From Burkholderiales bacterium (GTDB taxonomy: Bacteria; Pseudomonadota; Gammaproteobacteria; Burkholderiales; Casimicrobiaceae), in the NCBI GenBank assembly GCA_016790165.1, contig JAEUPL010000030.1:62001-126000 (forward strand): a stretch of DNA of 64,000 nucleotides, in the 5' to 3' direction. Position numbers and translations under genes: made by a program. Below the pieces are notes generated by a model that was not told the DNA's origin, did not search any database, and saw nothing but the letters and a program-made list of their open reading frames with translations. Numbering within the stretch: the stretch's first letter is position 1; each line of letters begins with the position of its first letter. Below, piece by piece: positions 124 through 49,080 of the stretch.

Positions 124-239
124 AGCTTTTTAGCCCGATCGACCGATCCGTGGTCGTTCAAGCCATTTTTATCAGTGAGTCGACTCGGGTGATTTTTCAC
201 AGCAAACGACCAGTGGGCGGTCGATAGAACCAAAAAGCT
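124..239. repeat. 116-bp palindromic gene-end repeat, copy A
   Basis: The element starts AGCTTTTT, ends AAAAAGCT and has its centre at GAGTCGACTC (177-186), exactly midway. Internal blocks ATCGACCG and TGGTCGTT occur in both arms at matching distances. The outer arms extend to ACAGCTTTTT and AAAAAGCTGT. It fills the space between two convergent stops: the partial gene stop at 117 and the lpxC stop at 242-244. Three other copies with the same register are at 25920, 30231 and 48931. Confidence 0.85.
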
Positions 240-241
240 GT

Positions 242-1099
242 TCAAGTCACGTAGCGCCAAGCCGCTGGATTGGCCTGAAGTGCGAGGCAGAGCCTGTTGT
301 TGAGCTCGTGACCGGACTTGAACGCGTGATATTTGCCGCGCACCCGATGCCCAAGCAGGAACAAATCGCCCACCGCGTCCAGCACTTTGTGGCGCGCCAG
401 TTCGTCAGTGAAGCGGAGGCCTTCACGGTTGAGCACCTTGTACTCGTCCAGGACGACCGCGTTTTCCATGCTACCGCCCTGTGCCAACCCCATCGAGCGC
501 AAGGTTTCGACCTCGTAGGCGAAGCCGAAGGTTCGCGCACGGCTGATGTGTGCAAGAAAGTCGTCGTCGTCGAGCTTCATACGCACGTGGCACTGGTCAT
601 CCGGAATCGCCGGATGCGAGAAATCGATCGTGAAATCCACCTCAAAGTGCGGATTGGGGAGCAGCTCGGCGAATTTGTCGCCGGCCTCAACGCGTACCGG
701 CGACAGAATCTCAATGTAGCGGCGAGGTGCATCTTGCGCGAAGACGCCCGCCTGTTCAATCAGAAACACAAACGGCGCCGATGAGCCATCCATGATCGGC
801 ACTTCGAGGTTGTCAAGCTCGATCAAGGCGTTGTCGAGCCCGCAGCCGACGCAGGCGGCGAGCAGGTGCTCCACGGTCGCCACCTTGGCGCCGCCGTGCA
901 CCAGGGTCGTGGCGAGGCGCGTTTCCTTCACCAGATCAGCGCGCGCCGGGATCTCGGCGACGGGGTTGAGGTCCGTGCGGCGAAAGATGAAACCGGTGTC
1001 CGGTGGCGCGGGATTCAGCGTAATCTGCACTCGAACGCCGGAGTGCAGCGCGACCCCCGTGGCAGAAATGGGCGCAGCGATAGTCTGTTGCTTGGGCAT
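242..1099 (-). CDS. lpxC: UDP-3-O-acyl-N-acetylglucosamine deacetylase
   Basis: This cytoplasmic zinc enzyme catalyses the committed step of lipid A synthesis, removing acetate from UDP-3-O-acyl-GlcNAc. The 285-residue product starts MPKQQTIAAPIS; the longer upstream frame is arginine-rich noise, so ATG at 1099 is chosen. Visible family motifs are EHLLAA near residue 80, carrying a zinc-binding His, then HKVLDAVGDLFLLG and SGHELNN near the C-terminus with the second His, the Asp ligand and a catalytic His. It is slightly shorter than the E. coli protein (305). It is the last gene of the dcw cluster, 127 bases after ftsZ, the usual place in proteobacteria. A palindromic repeat begins 2 bases past its stop. 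Confidence 0.97.
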   Translation of the reverse strand: MPKQQTIAAPISATGVALHSGVRVQITLNPAPPDTGFIFRRTDLNPVAEIPARADLVKETRLATTLVHGGAKVATVEHLLAACVGCGLDNALIELDNLEVPIMDGSSAPFVFLIEQAGVFAQDAPRRYIEILSPVRVEAGDKFAELLPNPHFEVDFTIDFSHPAIPDDQCHVRMKLDDDDFLAHISRARTFGFAYEVETLRSMGLAQGGSMENAVVLDEYKVLNREGLRFTDELARHKVLDAVGDLFLLGHRVRGKYHAFKSGHELNNRLCLALQANPAAWRYVT

Positions 1100-9629: not shown

Positions 9630-10784
9630 TTAGCGCAATTTCAGGGTGGATAAGCCGGCCAGCACGAGGAACATGGTAATGATCCAGAAGCGCACGACGA
9701 CATGGTTTTCATGCCAGCCGCTCAACTCGTAGTGGTGGTGTAGCGGGGCCATCCTCAGGATGCGTTTGCCCTTGGTGTACTTGAAATAGCCAACCTGCAA
9801 CATGACTGACAGGGTCTCCGCAACGAACACCCCCCCCATCACCACCAGCACAATCTCCTGACGCACAATGACCGCGATGGTGCCCAGCGACGCGCCGAGC
9901 GCCAAAGCACCGACGTCACCCATAAACACTCGCGCCGGATGCGCGTTGAACCAAAGGAAGCCGAGCCCAGCACCGGCCATCGCGCCGCAAAACACCATCA
10001 GCTCTGCAGCGCCGGGAATGTGCGGAAACAGCAGATAGCGCGAATAGTCGACGCGACCCACGACATAAGCGAATACCGCGAGTGCGCTCCCTACCATCAC
10101 CACCGGCATGATGGCCAGACCGTCCAGGCCGTCGGTGAGATTTACCGCGTTGCTGGTACCGACAATCACGAACCAGGTCAGCGCGATGAAGCCGAATACG
10201 CCGAGCGGATACGCGATGTTCTTGAAGAACGGCACGATCAGATCGGCCTTCGAGGGCAAATCGTTGCTGAACCCGCTCTGCAGCCACGAAAAGATGAGGT
10301 TGAAAATCGTGCTGGTACTCGGGGCGGACACCGCAAACGCGAGATAGGTCGACGCGATCAATCCAACCAGCGCCTGCCAGAACAGTTTTTCCTTCGCCGA
10401 CATCCCTTTCGGGTTTTTGTGCACCACCTTGCGGTAGTCATCCACCCAACCGACTGCACCGAACCCCACCATCACGAACATCACCACCCATACAAAGCGG
10501 TTGCTGAGGTCAGCCCACAGCAGCGTCGAAATGGCGATGGCAGTGAGAACGAGGGCGCCCCCCATCGTTGGTGTGCCTTGCTTGGCGAGATGCGACTGCG
10601 GGCCATCGTTGCGCACGGCCTGACCGATTTTCATGGCCAGCAACCAACGAATCATTCGCGGGCCGATCGCCAGCGCAATGCCCATCGCTGTGGCGCAGGC
10701 CAGCACGCTGCGCAGCGTGATGTAGTTCACCGCCGCGAGTGCGCGGATATCGCCTTGAAACAAGTTGGCAAGCCACAGCAGCAT
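9630..10784 (-). CDS. mraY: Phospho-N-acetylmuramoyl-pentapeptide-transferase
   Basis: MraY transfers phospho-MurNAc-pentapeptide to undecaprenyl phosphate, forming lipid I, in the inner membrane. The 384-residue polytopic protein contains the magnesium-site signature [27 protein letters not shown], the catalytic loop [16 protein letters not shown], and the cytoplasmic loop [18 protein letters not shown] with the conserved C-terminal histidine run [13 protein letters not shown]. The ATG shares one base with the murF stop (TAATG). Length is close to the usual 360-390. Confidence 0.98.
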
Positions 10785-15837: not shown

Positions 15838-16811
15838 GCCGCAGCCCCCGCATCGATCAGACGTTCGGCAACGCGCAGGCGTGCGCTCCGCGCGCGTGGG
15901 TTGCCAGCGATTTCACCCGCACTCGGCGCGATGTCGCGACCAACCAGTTTCATGCGTGGCGCCCGGGTCAAGCGATTCGGGAGGTGACGCAGACGCGGAT
16001 CCTCCGGCGTGCGGCCAGCGGCATCGCGCATCCATTGCTTCACGATGCGGTCTTCCAACGAATGGAAGGTGATCACGGCGAGGCGTCCGCCTGGCCCGAG
16101 CAGATCAATCGCCTCGCTCAATGCCATACGGAGCTCCTCGAGCTCTTGATTGATGTGAATCCGAATAGCCTGGAAGGTTTTCGTGGCCGGATGCTGCCCG
16201 CTCCACCGCGCTGGGACGGCTTTTTCGACAATCTGCGCAAGCTGAACGGTTCGCTCGACTGGTTGCCGCTCGCGTGCCGCAACAATCGCTGCTGCAATCC
16301 TCGAAGCAAACCGCTCTTCACCGTAGTCACGGATCACCTCCGCCAGTTGTTCAGTCGATGCACTCGCCAACCATTCGGCCGCGGTGACCCCGCGGCCTTG
16401 GTCCATCCGCATGTCGAGGGGGCCATCGCGCATGAAACTGAAACCGCGCGCGCCATCATCGAGTTGTGGCGACGACACACCGATATCCATGAGCAAACCG
16501 TCAACGCTGCCCTCGCGGAGCCCCACGCGAGCGAGTGTCGAAGCAAGATCTCCAAAGTGTGCCCGCACAAAGCGGAAGCGCGCGTCATCGATGTGCGCCG
16601 CCTCGCGCTCGGCAGCGGCATCACGATCCAGCGCGACCAGGCGGGACGGACTCGTCCCTGCACCGTGCGCCGGTAGTCGCCGCAGTAGTTCGCGACTGTG
16701 GCCGCCGCGCCCAAACGTGGCGTCGACCAGTGTGCCGCCGCGTTCCGGCAGCAAAGCGTCGCAGGCCTCTCGCAACAAGACTGAGATGTGGGAATCAACT
16801 GGCACGGCCAA
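15834..16811 (-). CDS. rsmH: 16S rRNA (cytosine(1402)-N(4))-methyltransferase
   Basis: RsmH (MraW) N4-methylates C1402 of 16S rRNA in the ribosomal P site. The 325-residue product shows HISVLLREACDALL, the SAM-binding motif TLVDATFGRGGHSREL, LMDIGVSSPQLDDGARGFSFMRDGPLDMRMD and AVITFHSLEDRIVKQWMRD, all diagnostic of the family. The start is TTG 16811 or GTG 16805; both are non-ATG and only two codons apart. It sits 4 bases after mraZ and overlaps ftsL, the standard dcw entry. Confidence 0.96.
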   Translation of the reverse strand: MAVPVDSHISVLLREACDALLPERGGTLVDATFGRGGHSRELLRRLPAHGAGTSPSRLVALDRDAAAEREAAHIDDARFRFVRAHFGDLASTLARVGLREGSVDGLLMDIGVSSPQLDDGARGFSFMRDGPLDMRMDQGRGVTAAEWLASASTEQLAEVIRDYGEERFASRIAAAIVAARERQPVERTVQLAQIVEKAVPARWSGQHPATKTFQAIRIHINQELEELRMALSEAIDLLGPGGRLAVITFHSLEDRIVKQWMRDAAGRTPEDPRLRHLPNRLTRAPRMKLVGRDIAPSAGEIAGNPRARSARLRVAERLIDAGAAA

Positions 16812-25098: not shown

Positions 25099-25137
25099 TC
25101 GGCAAATCCGGCAGGGCGGGTGCTTTATCCTCCCGAC

Positions 25138-25911
25138 ATGAAGTCCCTCGCCCACCTGTTCCGTCTCGACAACCGGATCGCGGTCATCACGGGTGGTAGT
25201 TCCGGCATCGGGCGCGCGATGGCCTATGCCCTGGGCGCACAGGGCGCGAAGCTAGTGCTCGTCGCGCGCAGCGCCGACACACTCGCGGAGACGGTGCGCG
25301 ATTTTGCGACCGACGGAATCACGGCCTGCGCAGTCGCCGCAGACCTCGGTGACGAGGCCGAGCGCGCGCGTGCAATCGGTGAGGCCAACGCCGCGTTCGG
25401 CGCGCCGGACATTCTGGTCAATGCCGCTGCGAACAACATTCGCAAGCCGTTGCCTGAACTCAGCAGTGATGAAATCCGCGCGACACTCGCACTCAATCTG
25501 GAGGCACCGCTCGCGCTGATTCAGGCATTCGCGCCCGCCATGCAGGCGCGCGGCTGGGGCCGCATCATCAATGTCACCTCACAACAGGCGCAACGGGCGT
25601 TTAACCACAGTGGCGTGTATGGCGTCAGCAAGGGCGGCCTGGCCTCGCTCACGCGATCAACGGCGGAGTACTACTCGCGCTTCGGTGTCACCTGCAATTC
25701 GCTGTCGCCGGGGTTCGTGGTCACGCCGTTGACTGTTGGCGCCCTGAACGCGCAGCCCGGCTTCGCCGAACGGCACGCCGCAGCTTCAATGATCGGGCGC
25801 AACGGCGTGCCCGACGACTTCATGGGCGCCGCGATCTTTCTGGCGTCCGACGCGAGTGCATTGGTGACGGGACACTCCTTGTTCGTCGACGGCGGGTACG
25901 GCGCGAAGTGA
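25138..25911 (+). CDS. Short-chain dehydrogenase/reductase (SDR)
   Basis: The product, about 257 residues, is a classical SDR with the cofactor loop VITGGSSGIGRAMA, NAAANNIRKPL, a catalytic Ser in INVTSQQAQ and the YGVSKGG catalytic Tyr-Lys pair. It ends in the usual FLASDASALVTGHSLFVDGGYGAK. It resembles gluconate 5-dehydrogenase-like SDRs acting on sugar acids or related polyols. ATG 25138 is preferred from homology; an in-frame GTG at 25120 is possible and neither has a convincing ribosome site. It follows suyB by 39 bases and may belong to the same operon. A palindromic repeat begins 8 bases after its stop. Confidence 0.85.
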   Translation: MKSLAHLFRLDNRIAVITGGSSGIGRAMAYALGAQGAKLVLVARSADTLAETVRDFATDGITACAVAADLGDEAERARAIGEANAAFGAPDILVNAAANNIRKPLPELSSDEIRATLALNLEAPLALIQAFAPAMQARGWGRIINVTSQQAQRAFNHSGVYGVSKGGLASLTRSTAEYYSRFGVTCNSLSPGFVVTPLTVGALNAQPGFAERHAAASMIGRNGVPDDFMGAAIFLASDASALVTGHSLFVDGGYGAK

Positions 25912-25919
25912 TGAGCGAT

Positions 25920-26034
25920 AGCTTTTTCGCCGTATGGACGGCTGTGTGGTACATGGAGGCCAATTTTTTGTGAAGTCGACTTTTCCTATTTTTGCGCTCA
26001 AACGCCGGTAGACTTGTGGATTCGCCAAAAAGCT
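25920..26034. repeat. Palindromic gene-end repeat, copy B
   Basis: This 115-base imperfect palindrome starts AGCTTTTT, ends AAAAAGCT and is centred on AAGTCGACTT at 25973-25982. Its right arm is one base shorter than in the other copies. It begins 8 bases after the SDR stop and lies upstream of the GntR gene. TATGGACGGC in the left arm aligns with TATCGACGGC of copy C. Confidence 0.85.
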
Positions 26035-26125
26035 GCCGTGAACTATCTGATGGTGACCGTCGCTACTCAAACCGCGCCGCCGGACTCGCCCGCTCGTCGG
26101 GATCCGCCGCGCCTGGAGTTGTCCC

Positions 26126-30102: not shown

Positions 30103-30230
30103 GATGTGTCTCCCGAAAGTTCGACCGTGTCCCGCGCTGTGGAACACCCCGCAGGCACGGTCGGCGTGTAACCGCAAATTTTAGGTCGCGACGGAGCGAA
30201 AAAAACGGTCAGCGCCGGATGCAGAGTAAT

Positions 30231-30346
30231 GGCTCTGTAGTGCTAACGGCTTGCGGGCGGTCAATCGAGGCTGATTTACGTCAAGGTCGACTTGATTCAA
30301 AAAACGGCTGCATCGACCGCCAGGCCGTCGATACCGCCAAAAAGCT
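30231..30346. repeat. 116-bp palindromic gene-end repeat, copy C
   Basis: The centre is GTCGAC 30286-30291 and the right end AAAAAGCT 30339-30346. The left end is degenerate, GGCTCTGT, three mismatches from AGCTTTTT. The block CGGCTGCATCGACCGC at 30305-30320 matches GGGCTGCATTGACCGC in copy D at the same distance from the centre. The element begins 11 bases beyond the stop of the reverse-strand PhzF gene. Confidence 0.82.
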
Positions 30347-30357
30347 GCTTTGCGATG

Positions 30358-31227
30358 CTACGGCAGCGCAATCTCGCCACCGCCCAGCGCCAGCACGCGC
30401 CCCCCCACGCGCACGCGGCGCTCGGCCGTGAGGGAGATCTGCAAGACGTTCAGGCGGTTGACGAATTCGCCTTGCGTGACGGTGAACCGCGACGGGGCGG
30501 GCTCGCCCGCGTCCAGCAGAAAGCCACCGAGGCAGGCGCAGGCGGAGCCGGTGCCCGGGTCTTCCGCCATCTGGCCGCCGTCCTTCGGGAAGAAGAAGCG
30601 CACCTGGAAGCGGTCGGTCGCGACGCGCGCCACCACGTAGGCGAGGTAGCGATCCAGCCGCGTGCGCACGAGGGCCTTCAGCAGGGCCGGATCGGGGTTC
30701 ACGCGCGCCAGTGCGTCCAGCGTTCTGACGGGGACTACCAACTGCTCGCTGCCGTTGTCAACGTAGCGCGAATCCCCGGCGAGGTCAGCGCCGTCGAGGC
30801 CGAGCATGCGCGCCGCCTCCGCCCGCGCGATACCGCTGGCGCGGCTGCTGTGCGCGTTGGCAGTGAAGGTCCAGGCGCCACTGGCGTCGCGCGTCACCGG
30901 GATGTCGCCCACCTTGAGCGCAAGCTGGATGGCATCACCCGCGCAGCCGTCCAGGCCCAGCGCGCTGGCCACAAACGAGGTGCCGATGGTGGGGTGGCCC
31001 GCAAACGGCATCTCGAACCCCGGCGTGAAGATGCGCACCTGCGGATGCGCCCCCGGCCGCGGCAGGATGAACGTCGTCTCTGACAAATTGAACTGCGCCG
31101 CCAGCGCCTGCATTTCGGCATCGGTCATGCCGTGCGCGTTCTCGAACACGCAGAGCGGATTGCCGCCAAAGGTGGCCGCGCTGGATTCGACGAAAACATT
31201 GACGAGCTGATAGCGGAAGCGGCGCAT
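30358..31227 (-). CDS. PhzF family isomerase/epimerase
   Basis: The 289-residue product is a PhzF-fold (diaminopimelate epimerase-like) protein: QLVNVFVESSAATFGGNPLCVFENA, the catalytic Glu region LSETTFILPRPGAHPQVRIFTPGFEMPFAGHPTIGTSFV, and a C-terminal half with RFFFPKDGGQMAEDPGTGSACACLGGFLLD, where DPGTGSA is a family hallmark. Substrates of most members are unknown; PhzF itself isomerises a phenazine precursor. No phenazine genes are nearby, so the specific role is open. ATG 31227 is chosen; ATG 31242 is five codons upstream. Confidence 0.88.
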   Translation of the reverse strand: MRRFRYQLVNVFVESSAATFGGNPLCVFENAHGMTDAEMQALAAQFNLSETTFILPRPGAHPQVRIFTPGFEMPFAGHPTIGTSFVASALGLDGCAGDAIQLALKVGDIPVTRDASGAWTFTANAHSSRASGIARAEAARMLGLDGADLAGDSRYVDNGSEQLVVPVRTLDALARVNPDPALLKALVRTRLDRYLAYVVARVATDRFQVRFFFPKDGGQMAEDPGTGSACACLGGFLLDAGEPAPSRFTVTQGEFVNRLNVLQISLTAERRVRVGGRVLALGGGEIALP

Positions 31228-31291
31228 GGTGACAGGCGGCATCGGGTAGGCGGCCTGAGATAATACGGGCAATCCGCCGCATTTGCGGCCC

Positions 31292-34858: not shown

Positions 34859-35248
34859 TGGTGGACCCGGCGGGAATTGAACCCGCGTCCGAAAGCCATC
34901 GATGGTCAGGACTACATGCTTAGCTCAGTGATTTGATCTCGCCGTTGACGCGAGCATGAGCACCCTCGCCACCAGCCAGCCCGCTTGATTTCGGATGCAC
35001 ACCGCAGGCGTTCATGCACCCTACCCGTGGGAAGATGATGTTGCTGCTTTACCAGTTGCCCGGCTCGGCGCAGGGTCCACGTCCCCTGCTGCAACACTCG
35101 AACCTAGTTTTTAATTAGGCTGCGAGACGGCTTTCGCCGTAGAAGCTATCGTTTGCAATTAAATTGCTTTGCAGCGGATTTACGAGGAGCTACCCCTCGA
35201 CATGCCCCAAGCGCATATCAGAACTCCCGTCGAAACCAGGTCGGGCCC
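34859..35248 (-). ncRNA. ssrA: Transfer-messenger RNA (tmRNA)
   Basis: tmRNA rescues stalled ribosomes and tags the nascent peptide for proteolysis. Read on the reverse strand, the RNA begins GGGCCCGACCTGGTTTCGAC and ends with the T-arm GGGTTCAATTCCC and GGGTCCACCA. The 5' GGGCCCG pairs with the 3' CGGGTCC to give the 7-base acceptor stem, so it is one-piece and about 390 nt. A pseudoknot-1 region GTCGAGGGGTAGC / CCTCGTAAA precedes the tag. The resume codon is GCA at 35154-35156 and the tag reads ANDSFYGESRLAA with TAA at 35115-35117. The usual betaproteobacterial tag is nearer ANDxxxALAA, so this one is longer and unusual. Confidence 0.95.
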
Positions 35249-47036: not shown

Positions 47037-47596
47037 ACCGTCGCCCAGTGGGCAGCCCTTCGCGCGCAAGGCGAGCCCGCGCCGCGGTCGCGGCATTGAT
47101 CGTCGCGCTCGTCAGCGCCGCAGCCAGCGCTCCGGTTGCCGCGCAGGCTGTCAACCCCGTTGCACCGTCTGACCCGGCGCTTGAAGCCCGCGTCAAGGCG
47201 CTGGGTTCGGAGTTGCGCTGTCTCGTGTGCCAGAACCAGACCGTTGCTGATAGCGACGCGCCCGTTGCGCAGGACTTGCGCGCACAGGTTCGCGCGCAGC
47301 TCGCCGCAGGCAAGAGCGAGGCTGAAGTGAAGCAATACATGACCGAGCGGTTCGGCGACTTTGTGCTCTACAAGCCCCCCTTCAAGGCGAGCACCGTGGC
47401 GCTCTGGGCGGGGCCCTTTGTGGTGCTGCTTGTCGTCGGTGCGCTGTTATGGCGCCGCATTGTTCGCGCCAGCACGGGCGCCGGTGCGGGCGCGGCAGAC
47501 GGCGAAGCGGCCACGTTGTCGGAGGCGGACCGCAGCCGGGCACGCGCCCTGCTCGCCGCGGCCAACGCTGACCGTGCAGGCGGGGAGCGCCCATGA
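47033..47596 (+). CDS. ccmH: Cytochrome c maturation protein CcmH (CcmL/CycL type)
   Basis: The 187-residue protein has a signal peptide (AAVAALIVALVSAAASAPVAAQA) and the periplasmic redox motif LRCLVCQNQTVADSDAPVA, with the reactive cysteines at residues 63 and 66 that reduce or hold apocytochrome heme-site thiols. RAQVRAQLAAGKSEAEVKQYMTERFGDFVLYKPPF and a C-terminal membrane anchor follow. A short cytoplasmic tail ends in RALLAAANADRAGGERP. It overlaps ccmF and ccmI by 4 bases each. A ccmG (DsbE thioredoxin) gene normally lies between ccmF and ccmH but is missing here. Confidence 0.95.
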   Translation: MNRRPVGSPSRARRARAAVAALIVALVSAAASAPVAAQAVNPVAPSDPALEARVKALGSELRCLVCQNQTVADSDAPVAQDLRAQVRAQLAAGKSEAEVKQYMTERFGDFVLYKPPFKASTVALWAGPFVVLLVVGALLWRRIVRASTGAGAGAADGEAATLSEADRSRARALLAAANADRAGGERP

Positions 47597-48921
47597 ATCC
47601 AGCCATCGCCCTCGTATTACTCATGCTCGCCATGCTTGCTGCGGTGCTCTGGTGGTTGCTGCGCGTGCTGCTGCGTGGACCACGGGCTCCTCAGGTGGTC
47701 AGCGGCCTCGCCGAGAGCGAAAGCGCCAACGTCGACGCCCTGCGCAGCGAACTGGCCGAGGCCCGTCGCGACCGGCAATTAGGTCTGCTTTCCGACACTG
47801 CGCTGGCCGAAGCCGAGCGCGAGATTGAGGCGCGCGTGCTCGCCGAGAGCACCGGCGTCGATGCGGGCACCGCTGCGCCCCGCAGCAGCAGCGCCGCCGT
47901 CCGCCCAAGCCGCCGACCAGCGATCGCGCTGGGCGTGCTGCTGCCCCTCTTGTCGCTCGGCGCCTACTTTCTGGTGGGTTCGCCCGCGGCCGTGATTCCA
48001 GACGTTGTGCGGCCGCAGCCCACCGCTGCGAAGTCGGCTGAGGCCGAGCAGCAGATGGAGGCCATTTTCCGGCAAGCCGAAGAGCGTCTGGCCAAGCAGC
48101 CCGACGACGCGCGTGGCTGGGCACTGCTGGCACGCGCACGGGCGTCGGTGGCGCAGTTCGACAAGGCACTGGTCGCCTACGAAAAGGCGGCGGCACTGAC
48201 GCCGCAGGACGCCGACTTGTGGGCCGACTTCGCCGACGCCGCCGCCGGACAGGCCGAAGGCAAGATGGCCGGCAAACCGCTCGAATTGATCAACCGCGCA
48301 CTCGCGCTCGATGCCCGCAACGCCAAAGCGCTGCTGTTGCGCGGCACCTGGGAAATTCAAAACAATCAGCTGGCGGCTGCCGTCAAAACCTTCACGCTCG
48401 CCAAATCGGTGGTTGAGCCGAACTCCGGGTTCGCGCAAATCGCCGACAACGCGCTCGCCGACCTCGCCAGCCGGGGTGCGTCTGGCGCGACCGCAGCCCC
48501 CAGTGCGTCGGGCGTGGCTACCGCGCCAAGCTCGGCCGCAAACGCCGCCGCGTCGCCCGCGGCAGCGGCGACGCCCATCGCGACGGTTCGAATCGCGCTG
48601 CCCGACGCCGCGCGGCGCGCGGCGACCGCAAAGTCTGCGGTGTTCCTCATCGTGCGCAACGGCACCGGCGCTGATCGCGCCCCCCCGCTCGCCGTGCGCA
48701 AGTTGACGCTCGGCGAACTCGAGCGCCCGGTCGTGCTCACCACCGCCGACGCCATGATCGGTGGCAGCGGTCTGCAGCCCGGCGCCGCCGCCACCTTGCA
48801 AGCGCGGCTCTCAATCACCGGTCAACCGACACCGCAGCGCGGCGACTGGCAAAGCAACAAGCTCACCATCACGCTGCCTGCCGGCGAACAGCGGCTATCG
48901 CTCGATCAGGCGGTAGAGTAG
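47593..48921 (+). CDS. ccmI: Cytochrome c maturation protein CcmI (CycH)
   Basis: CcmI is the apocytochrome chaperone of the system I heme lyase, delivering the unfolded cytochrome to CcmFH. The 442-residue product has two N-terminal membrane segments (IALVLLMLAMLAAVLWWLLRVLL and PAIALGVLLPLLSLGAYFLVG) with a charged leucine-zipper-like loop between them. A periplasmic TPR region follows (ADDARGWALLARARASVAQFDKALVAYEKAAALTPQDADLWADFADA), then an Ala-rich linker and a C-terminal beta-rich domain of the CcmI type. It overlaps ccmH by 4 bases. A palindromic repeat begins 9 bases after its stop. Confidence 0.92.
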   Translation: MNPAIALVLLMLAMLAAVLWWLLRVLLRGPRAPQVVSGLAESESANVDALRSELAEARRDRQLGLLSDTALAEAEREIEARVLAESTGVDAGTAAPRSSSAAVRPSRRPAIALGVLLPLLSLGAYFLVGSPAAVIPDVVRPQPTAAKSAEAEQQMEAIFRQAEERLAKQPDDARGWALLARARASVAQFDKALVAYEKAAALTPQDADLWADFADAAAGQAEGKMAGKPLELINRALALDARNAKALLLRGTWEIQNNQLAAAVKTFTLAKSVVEPNSGFAQIADNALADLASRGASGATAAPSASGVATAPSSAANAAASPAAAATPIATVRIALPDAARRAATAKSAVFLIVRNGTGADRAPPLAVRKLTLGELERPVVLTTADAMIGGSGLQPGAAATLQARLSITGQPTPQRGDWQSNKLTITLPAGEQRLSLDQAVE

Positions 48922-48930
48922 TGCGCCAAC

Positions 48931-49046
48931 AGCTTTTCACCTCGAACGACTACCCAGCGGTCGTTTCAGCGAATAATCGTGCTTAGTCGACTAGATCGAA
49001 TTTCGGGCTGCATTGACCGCTCAGAAGCCGTGCGTGTCAAAAAGGT
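48931..49046. repeat. 116-bp palindromic gene-end repeat, copy D
   Basis: The left end is AGCTTTTC, the centre TAGTCGACTA (48984-48993) and the right end AAAAAGGT (49039-49046), each terminal octamer one mismatch from the family ends. The flanks extend the inverted repeat by AC and GT. The arms share GCGGTCGTTTCAGC-type blocks in the same register as copies A and C. It starts 9 bases after the ccmI stop and lies upstream of the glnA control region. Confidence 0.82.
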
Positions 49047-49080
49047 GTATCAGCCAAGTTTCAACGAAGCACGATAAAGG

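Follow-up and report, generated by a model that had tools for sequence, protein, structure and literature searches.

Evenly spaced, two-fold symmetric 122-bp elements restricted to one genus of Casimicrobiaceae: putative anchor sites of a dedicated DNA-binding complex

Results

Four copies of a symmetric element in the window

We analyzed a 64,000-nt stretch of DNA (the window) that spans C12:62001-126000 of the source genome, a 3.76-Mb draft (G000); a window position is the C12 coordinate minus 62000. A first-pass annotation had described four palindromic copies here, each just past a stop codon, and all four are present where it placed them, with AGCTTTTT/AAAAAGCT-type ends and GTCGAC mid-element. 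Its flanking genes were likewise recovered by Pfam as LpxC, short-chain dehydrogenase, PhzF-like and CcmH/CycH-like. The extent that it gave to the copies was too small: a sequence-only model, R1, made from an ungapped 126-column alignment of 28 elements each in both orientations (A2), sets wider borders, and a complete unit spans about 122 bp, AACAGCTTTTT...GTCGAC...AAAAAGCTGTT. The R1 profile search found exactly four copies in the window and no fifth.

Copy A (121-242; R1 79.0/78.7 bits at C12:62121-62242) is lodged between the TAG of an upstream open frame (115-117) and the lpxC stop codon (242-244, minus strand). Its central GTCGAC (179-184), evident from the sequence and from the arm profile described below, is flanked by A/T tracts at 167-171 and 192-196 (arm positions 11-15) and by lateral palindromes at 138-158, in the CGACC...GGTCG dialect, and 205-225 (arm positions 24-44). 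The end motifs, both given on the plus strand, are TACAGCTTTTT at 121-131, with 0.6-1.7 bits at each of arm positions 51-61, and AAAAAGCTGTT at 232-242, over the same arm positions. Copy B (25918-26035; 60.5/58.2 bits) lies 3' of the short-chain dehydrogenase gene (25120-25911), copy C (30227-30349; 70.4/70.1 bits) 3' of the PhzF-like gene (30358-31242, minus strand), and copy D (48928-49050; 76.3/76.0 bits) 3' of the ccmI-like gene (47593-48921). Self-complementary positions number 64 of 116 in copy A, 42 of 115 in B, 64 of 116 in C and 70 of 116 in D. In copy B the palindrome is weak and the centre displaced by half a base because one arm is 1 bp short, a shortfall that a sliding-block scan places in the outer spacer; R1 detected this copy nonetheless. 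At the Rfam gathering score, only a tmRNA gene (34859-35248, minus strand; RF00023) matched in the window, and the four copies were unmatched.

Family size and anatomy

That the copies belong to a genome-wide family was borne out by the profile search of 396 kb of G000 (contig C12 whole and C9 1-200000), which returned 30 elements on both strands at 39.5-83 bits, well beyond the four in the window; the next hit was one partial match of 15 bits. The density, about one per 13 kb, gives about 285 per genome by extrapolation from 396 kb. A whole-genome search of G000 yielded at least 150 matches (150 of 1427 candidates were scored, all of them matching), and the pattern GTCGAC-N42..50-AAAAAGCT occurred 44+52 times in this genome, compared with 0+0 for the reversed pattern.

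An arm profile, read outward from the dyad, was compiled from 106 arms of 53 G000 elements; 4 of 57 elements, with profile scores of 60 or less, were left out of this and of the covariation, spacer and flank-repeat analyses. Positions 1-5 read GAC(T)(T), positions 11-15 form an A/T tract whose position 14 is A or T in all 106 arms, A-A-C-G-A-C-C at 24-30 and G-T-C-G-x-T at 39-44 make up a lateral palindrome, and positions 51-61 read AAAAAGCTGTT, while many intervening positions are near random. The layout is therefore one of a central palindrome, two lateral palindromes and two end motifs, and the TCGA core is present in most examples from other lineages too.

The spacing between these parts is largely fixed. 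The sliding-block scan recovered 28 of 30 G000 elements and none in reversed sequence, and in 27 of the 28 no shift between centre and lateral block outscored the standard spacing, a figure to be read with the 4-bit cost of a shift in mind, since this cost holds weak blocks at the standard spacing. In the remaining recovered element (C12:161956) the lateral blocks are unrecognisable. Among the recovered elements, outer spacers deviated by -1 bp in two arms and by +10 bp in three. Of 74 full-length matches listed, with totals of 114-132 bp allowed (27 of 27 from G005, 16 of 16 from G004 and 31 listed of 56 from G000), 72 measured 116-118 bp and two 128 bp; one helical turn is tolerated, and intermediate lengths are absent among these listed matches. 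Matches one base longer occur elsewhere in G000, for example at C32:90643-90767.

A/T content peaks along the G000 arm near 4.5, 13.5, 24.5, 43.5, 53 and 60.5, and in G015, which uses different words, at nearly the same places plus one near 32-35; the period in these two dialects is about 9.5-9.75 bp. The strongest dependencies within the arm involve adjacent bases, AA/TT at 13-14, TG/CA at 58-59 and CG/GC at 26-27, a behaviour that would be expected of duplex DNA read partly via base steps.

No sign of selection for a folded form

The first-pass annotation had suggested that the transcribed element acts as a hairpin at mRNA ends. An RNA or cruciform role predicts a better match between arms taken from the same copy than between arms exchanged among copies. 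In G000 the arm-arm match was 32.42 of 63, against 32.95 ± 0.43 after shuffling (1794 of 2000 shuffles reached the observed value); it was 28.04 of 60 against 27.61 ± 0.70 in G015 (24 elements) and 26.40 against 26.42 ± 0.86 in G005 (25 elements). Allowing a slip of ±1 produced a slight excess in G015, where 29 of 500 shuffles equalled or exceeded the observed value, and none in G005 (349 of 500). Among the top within-arm pairs in G000, none reflected covariation between the halves of the lateral palindrome. With no arm-arm covariation in three species, the hairpin proposal lost its footing and an RNA hairpin or cruciform was rejected as a candidate; since arm complementarity equals that of shuffled arms, the symmetry appears to be read as duplex and not folded. 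Read from the sequence, the elements also lack the intrinsic terminator layout of a G+C-rich stem followed by a T run, their ends, 5' AGCTTTTT...AAAAAGCT 3', being the reverse of it. Beside rplQ, a separate terminator-like hairpin adjoins the element in both G000 and G005, as judged by eye.

Distribution in the genus and dialects

Relatives of the lpxC gene above 70% identity numbered 11, all from MAG records labelled Burkholderiales, Betaproteobacteria, Proteobacteria or Pseudomonadota. Within the genus, R1 matched 11 of 17 genomes; among 23 relatives from outside the genus it matched none. A strict half-element pattern was found in 11 of 17 genus genomes, with the other six at 0+0 and the reversed control at 0 or 1, and the full-length pattern gave one match in a genome of another genus and single matches in G009 and G014, on a par with the reversed control. 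A second model, R2, was derived from an alignment (A3) drawn mainly from the complete genome G005 (21 of 26 elements); with stricter filters and at most 54 candidates scored per genome, it matched 16 of 17 genus genomes, G016 being the exception, and none of the 47 genomes from elsewhere in the family. The six genus genomes without a strict pattern match have weaker R2 matches or, in G016, none, and the element is thus dispensable or unrecognisable in these six of 17.

The wording of the element differs between species. G005 shares ends and centre with G000 and has the lateral word AGCCC...GGGCT instead of CGACC...GGTCG; the lateral word is CGCCC...GGGCG at lpxC in G012 and GCCCAATT...AATTGGGC in G007, where the ends are altered as well. 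In a three-protein tree, the CGACC genomes G000, G003 and G008 fall into one weakly supported group with G013, and since G013 has the other, G005-type dialect, the mapping of dialect onto the tree is imperfect. G009 groups with G016 in the same tree, these being the two element-poorest genomes. Both of these sisters are small (about 2.5 Mb) and without Y1_Tnp matches. Diverged elements were also seen in G011, at L166:15493-15605 and L165:5460-5571, and the lpxC one has the centre TTTCGGAAA in place of GTCGAC, as if the central word drifts too.

Elements at orthologous places

Several positions are common to many species. An element lies 3' of accD in 10 of the 16 genomes with this gene (G000, G008, G005, G013, G012, G001, G015, G004, G006 and G007), and G010 and G002 have degenerate-looking forms there, recognised by eye only. 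The region 3' of gatB carries one in 6 of 17 (G000, G013, G005, G012, G007 and G004), with two weak matches in G010 and G014, and that 3' of lpxC in 7 of 16 (G000, G003, G015, G005, G012, G001 and G013); G014 has a further one, about 440 bp past the stop codon. A fourth common place lies beside rplQ, in G000 and G005. Absences at single loci are common, as in G008 and G004 at lpxC and in G001, G015, G006 and G008 directly 3' of gatB. G007 has a weak match (23 bits; L147:1214-1334) upstream of lpxC instead of downstream.

The two models separate these elements by genome. At accD, R1/R2 scores in bits are 58.8/27.0 in G000 and 72.9/14.0 in G008, both of R1 type, and 17.0/66.5 in G005, 25.5/64.0 in G013, 13.7/52.2 in G012, 20.3/52.3 in G001 and 28.1/51.0 in G015; G004 (46.1), G006 (40.1) and G007 (24.9) were matched by R2 only. 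The accD elements and the gatB elements outside G000 were in neither model, which makes accD a clean test. At gatB the scores are 83.3/13.4 in G000, whose element was in A2 together with copy A so that the contrast is partly built in, and 19.9/55.5 in G013, 24.0/51.7 in G005 and 14.9/50.7 in G012. The lpxC locus agrees with accD on a genome-bound dialect, most of its elements having been in one of the models (those of G015, G001, G012, G013 and G005 in A3, where the contrast is again partly built in). As far as the sequences tell, the putative recognition words follow the genome and not the locus. Motif identity between G000 and G005 orthologues is 0.53 (accD, lpxC), below the 0.68 of unrelated copies within G000, a value biased upward because the motif columns were chosen from G000 conservation. 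Spacer identity of orthologues ranged from 0.18 to 0.52 over the pairs listed, compared with 0.34 for unrelated copies.

Placement and spacing on the chromosome

Placement was assessed for 88 elements from three species (30 from G000, 28 from G005 and 30 from G015) against an expectation from all gaps of 120-1500 bp; one element overlapping a called CDS and two in gaps above 1.5 kb were unclassed, three partial G005 matches were kept for the spacing test only, and one 17-bit G015 match was left out of both analyses. The 85 classed elements comprised 49 in tandem gaps (48.9 expected), 22 in convergent gaps (10.8) and 14 in divergent gaps (25.3), classes that are approximate because the simple codon-usage gene caller misses small genes, such as the frame to the left of copy A. 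Of the 49 elements in tandem gaps, 41 lay nearer the stop codon, at a median of 28 bp. The gene-end placement noted in the first pass therefore stands as a bias, given the convergent excess and the tandem elements near stops; as a strict rule it was rejected, with 14 of 85 elements in divergent gaps. The class bias is invisible with the 30 G000 elements alone and appears with the 85 classed.

Spacing is more telling than the gene-end bias. Across 796 kb from G000 and G005, the 61 elements had a mean gap of 12.2 kb and a smallest gap of 2.9 kb, whereas random intergenic choice gives 6.6 gaps below 2 kb. The coefficient of variation (CV) was 0.54, against 0.90 ± 0.10 for random intergenic gaps, and 0 of 5000 simulations were as even. 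The 30 elements of G015, an independent third species, gave a CV of 0.63 against 0.92 ± 0.15 (p about 0.01). In the complete genome G005, listed positions run from 20 kb to 4.42 Mb with no obvious empty region by eye.

Mobility and transposases

A mobile, MITE-like origin had also been raised in the first pass. Among 53 elements, direct flank identity showed no excess for target-site duplications of 2-12 bp (best z 2.0 among 231 combinations tried), and the terminal T/A showed no left-right correlation. Spacer identity between the 53 copies was 0.340, compared with 0.337 ± 0.001 for the column-shuffled null, and no pair exceeded the null maximum. An active MITE is not supported, in view of this lack of target-site duplication and of alike spacers and of the positions common to several species. 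A plasmid or phage origin of copy A was discarded: its DNA had no plasmid match, and the one phage match covered 36 bases at E 0.4. Searches of 400 kb of G005 and 360 kb of G015 gave two half-length matches and one, respectively.

The statement that no transposase is present holds for the elements themselves and fails for the genome, which does have RAYT transposases. Y1_Tnp (RAYT) proteins are encoded by 15 of the 17 genus genomes and by 15 of the 23 from outside the genus. Outside the window, tandem RAYT genes lie on the minus strand of G000:C12 (L096:1190-2830; genes 1243-1764 and 1988-2485). This pair matches NCBIfam REP_Tyr_transpos and is adjoined by GTAG-tagged REPs of two sequence types, with one inverted pair; there are 8 such REP loci in 396 kb of G000, and their sequence is unlike that of the 122-bp elements. 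A second G000 Y1_Tnp match lies at C7:97470, with surroundings searched by R2 only. A RAYT-driven REPIN was attractive at first, as Y1_Tnp is missing from exactly G009 and G016, the two genomes with few or no elements. It was dropped because the C12 pair has its own canonical GTAG REPs and its nearest element about 3 kb off, four Y1_Tnp loci of G005 lie 2.5-4.2 kb from their nearest elements, 15 of the 23 genomes outside the genus have Y1_Tnp and no R1 match, and G009 and G016 form one clade.

Discussion

The elements share traits with several known classes of sequence. Like REP/BIME/REPIN sequences they are palindromic, intergenic and often near gene 3' ends, and since REPs show a similar bias (PMC3733652), gene-end bias alone is no proof of function. 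In contrast to REP/REPIN, the arm profile holds no GTAG/CGTC tag at a hairpin foot, the stem shows no covariation, the RAYT pair on C12 and four Y1_Tnp loci of G005 are not flanked by the element, and the elements are evenly spaced and change dialect at orthologous sites. ERIC/IRU (127 bp), Correia/NEMIS, RUP and CIR MITEs resemble them in a size near 120 bp for several, in inverted-repeat ends and in a mostly intergenic location (PMC2229807). The 122-bp elements do end in terminal inverted repeats, AACAGCTTTTT/AAAAAGCTGTT; unlike those MITEs, they keep their internal spacing, include few decayed copies, and lack target-site duplication, left-right correlation at the terminal T/A and alike copies. 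Sites such as matS, parS, Noc and SlmA sites are also duplex sites scattered over the chromosome and read by a nucleoid protein. They are short single sites and fewer, whereas the elements are five-part sites of 122 bp, evenly spaced. The elements appear to fall outside the REP/REPIN, MITE and uptake-sequence definitions; titles and abstract beginnings of the top-ranked papers in the freely accessible journal literature contained no description of such elements.

Our preferred reading, to which we assign a probability of about 0.55, is that the elements are putative anchor sites, symmetric duplex sites of about 122 bp for a multimeric, genus-specific complex that organises the chromosome. The absence of shared spacers and of target-site duplication, together with the kept internal spacing, is consistent with a symmetric protein assembly that reads the DNA as duplex, and the phased architecture, lack of hairpin constraint, orthologous presence, dialects and even spacing point to a site array read by a dedicated assembly. 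Protein binding, one of the roles raised in the first-pass annotation, is supported as a possible role. We infer that the complex would bind each two-fold symmetric site as a multimer and probably bend or wrap its DNA; a period below 10.5 bp might suit a left-handed wrap, opposite to the 10.75 bp reported for the gyrase motif (PMC6379681). Bacterial histones, one wrapping candidate, were rejected, as none of 40 genomes encodes a histone-fold protein of Pfam PF00808. A role in chromosome organisation is suggested by the spacing, the spread and the gene-end parking: some 300 sites, one per 12 kb or so and mostly parked behind genes where they would be harmless, may act as anchors, for example as domain borders, bridging points or topology-control points. 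The DNA preference of the assembly would have shifted in a lineage and the sites followed. Even spacing could also stem from transposition immunity, and a different process, for example biased transfer, could lie behind the drift of motifs at hundreds of sites.

Immunity of this kind belongs to the reading of the family as an old, immobile MITE-like repeat that spread in the genus ancestor and has since diverged, with insertion immunity leaving the even spacing as a relic, which we consider rather unlikely. Inverted-repeat ends, intergenic location and hundreds of copies suit it, and some copying phase probably did occur, because a composite of 122 bp hardly arises hundreds of times from scratch. 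Dead copies should, however, leave a continuum of decay, and 396 kb holds a single match between noise and 39 bits; half-length matches are few, target-site duplications are lacking, spacers are at chance between copies while motif positions and spacing are kept, and a given orthologous site carries different motif words in different genomes. An RNA hairpin for 3'-end formation or mRNA stability would explain the gene-end bias, and single copies such as A are able to fold, but the missing covariation in three species, and between lateral-palindrome halves in G000, the 14 of 85 elements in divergent gaps, the separate terminator-like hairpins at rplQ and the unmatched Rfam search of the four window copies leave it barely credible.

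The elements might alternatively be strong sites of DNA gyrase or topoisomerase IV, with about 120 bp wrapped and cut at TCGA behind genes, where positive supercoils would be removed. Length, symmetry, the central 4-bp TCGA core, phased A/T content, gene-end bias and even spacing all agree with this, but gyrase is, to our knowledge, universal, and the element occurs in 0 of 47 sister-genus genomes. The E. coli gyrase motif is similar in its length of about 130 bp, its symmetry and the phasing of GC content in the flanking parts, and traits of strong gyrase sites are known from BIME-2 elements (PMC6379681). That motif is degenerate with a period of 10.75 bp (PMC6379681), whereas the elements have a period of 9.5-9.75 bp and base-specific lateral words, conserved within a genome, varying by species and restricted to one genus, and we hold the gyrase explanation to be improbable. 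By analogy with the uptake sequences of Neisseriaceae, the family could also be a signal for self-recognition, spelled in species dialects and maintained through biased uptake or recombination. Such DNA uptake sequences (DUS) are short. The dialects do follow the genome, much as DUS spelling differs between related species consistently with phylogeny (PMC3630211). The same source gives thousands of DUS copies (PMC3630211), compared with a few hundred elements (30 in 396 kb), each a composite symmetric unit of 122 bp and evenly spaced, and this origin is very improbable.

Should the anchor reading be correct, the elements would be a physical, sequence-defined candidate for bacterial chromosome domains, which are roughly 10 kb in size, in the form of evenly placed anchors. 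They would also provide a natural case of a DNA-binding complex that changed its recognition code at hundreds of sites, and thereby of protein-DNA co-evolution readable directly from genomes. A bolder version, possible but doubtful, is that about 300 evenly spaced, nucleosome-sized docking sites of 122 bp for a dedicated wrapping or bridging complex partition the chromosome, and that the code by which this complex reads DNA was rewritten genome-wide several times within the genus, with many sites remaining in their ancestral positions.

Three G000 elements with +10 bp in one outer spacer lie within 10 kb on C12 (L102:7018-7149, 9937-10068 and 16560-16691), and the first two look alike at the extra 10 bp. 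We considered whether this cluster (C12:127018, 129937 and 136560) marks a regulator gene and discarded the idea, as the neighbours tested, among them three RCC1-repeat genes (whose products seem, by eye, to carry signal peptides) and genes for a kinase and an ECF sigma factor, include no obvious candidate for a dedicated DNA binder. Other elements exceeding the usual length by about 10 bp were seen at L178:420-552 (G008), L223:2254-2384 (G015) and G000:C1:43541-43668.
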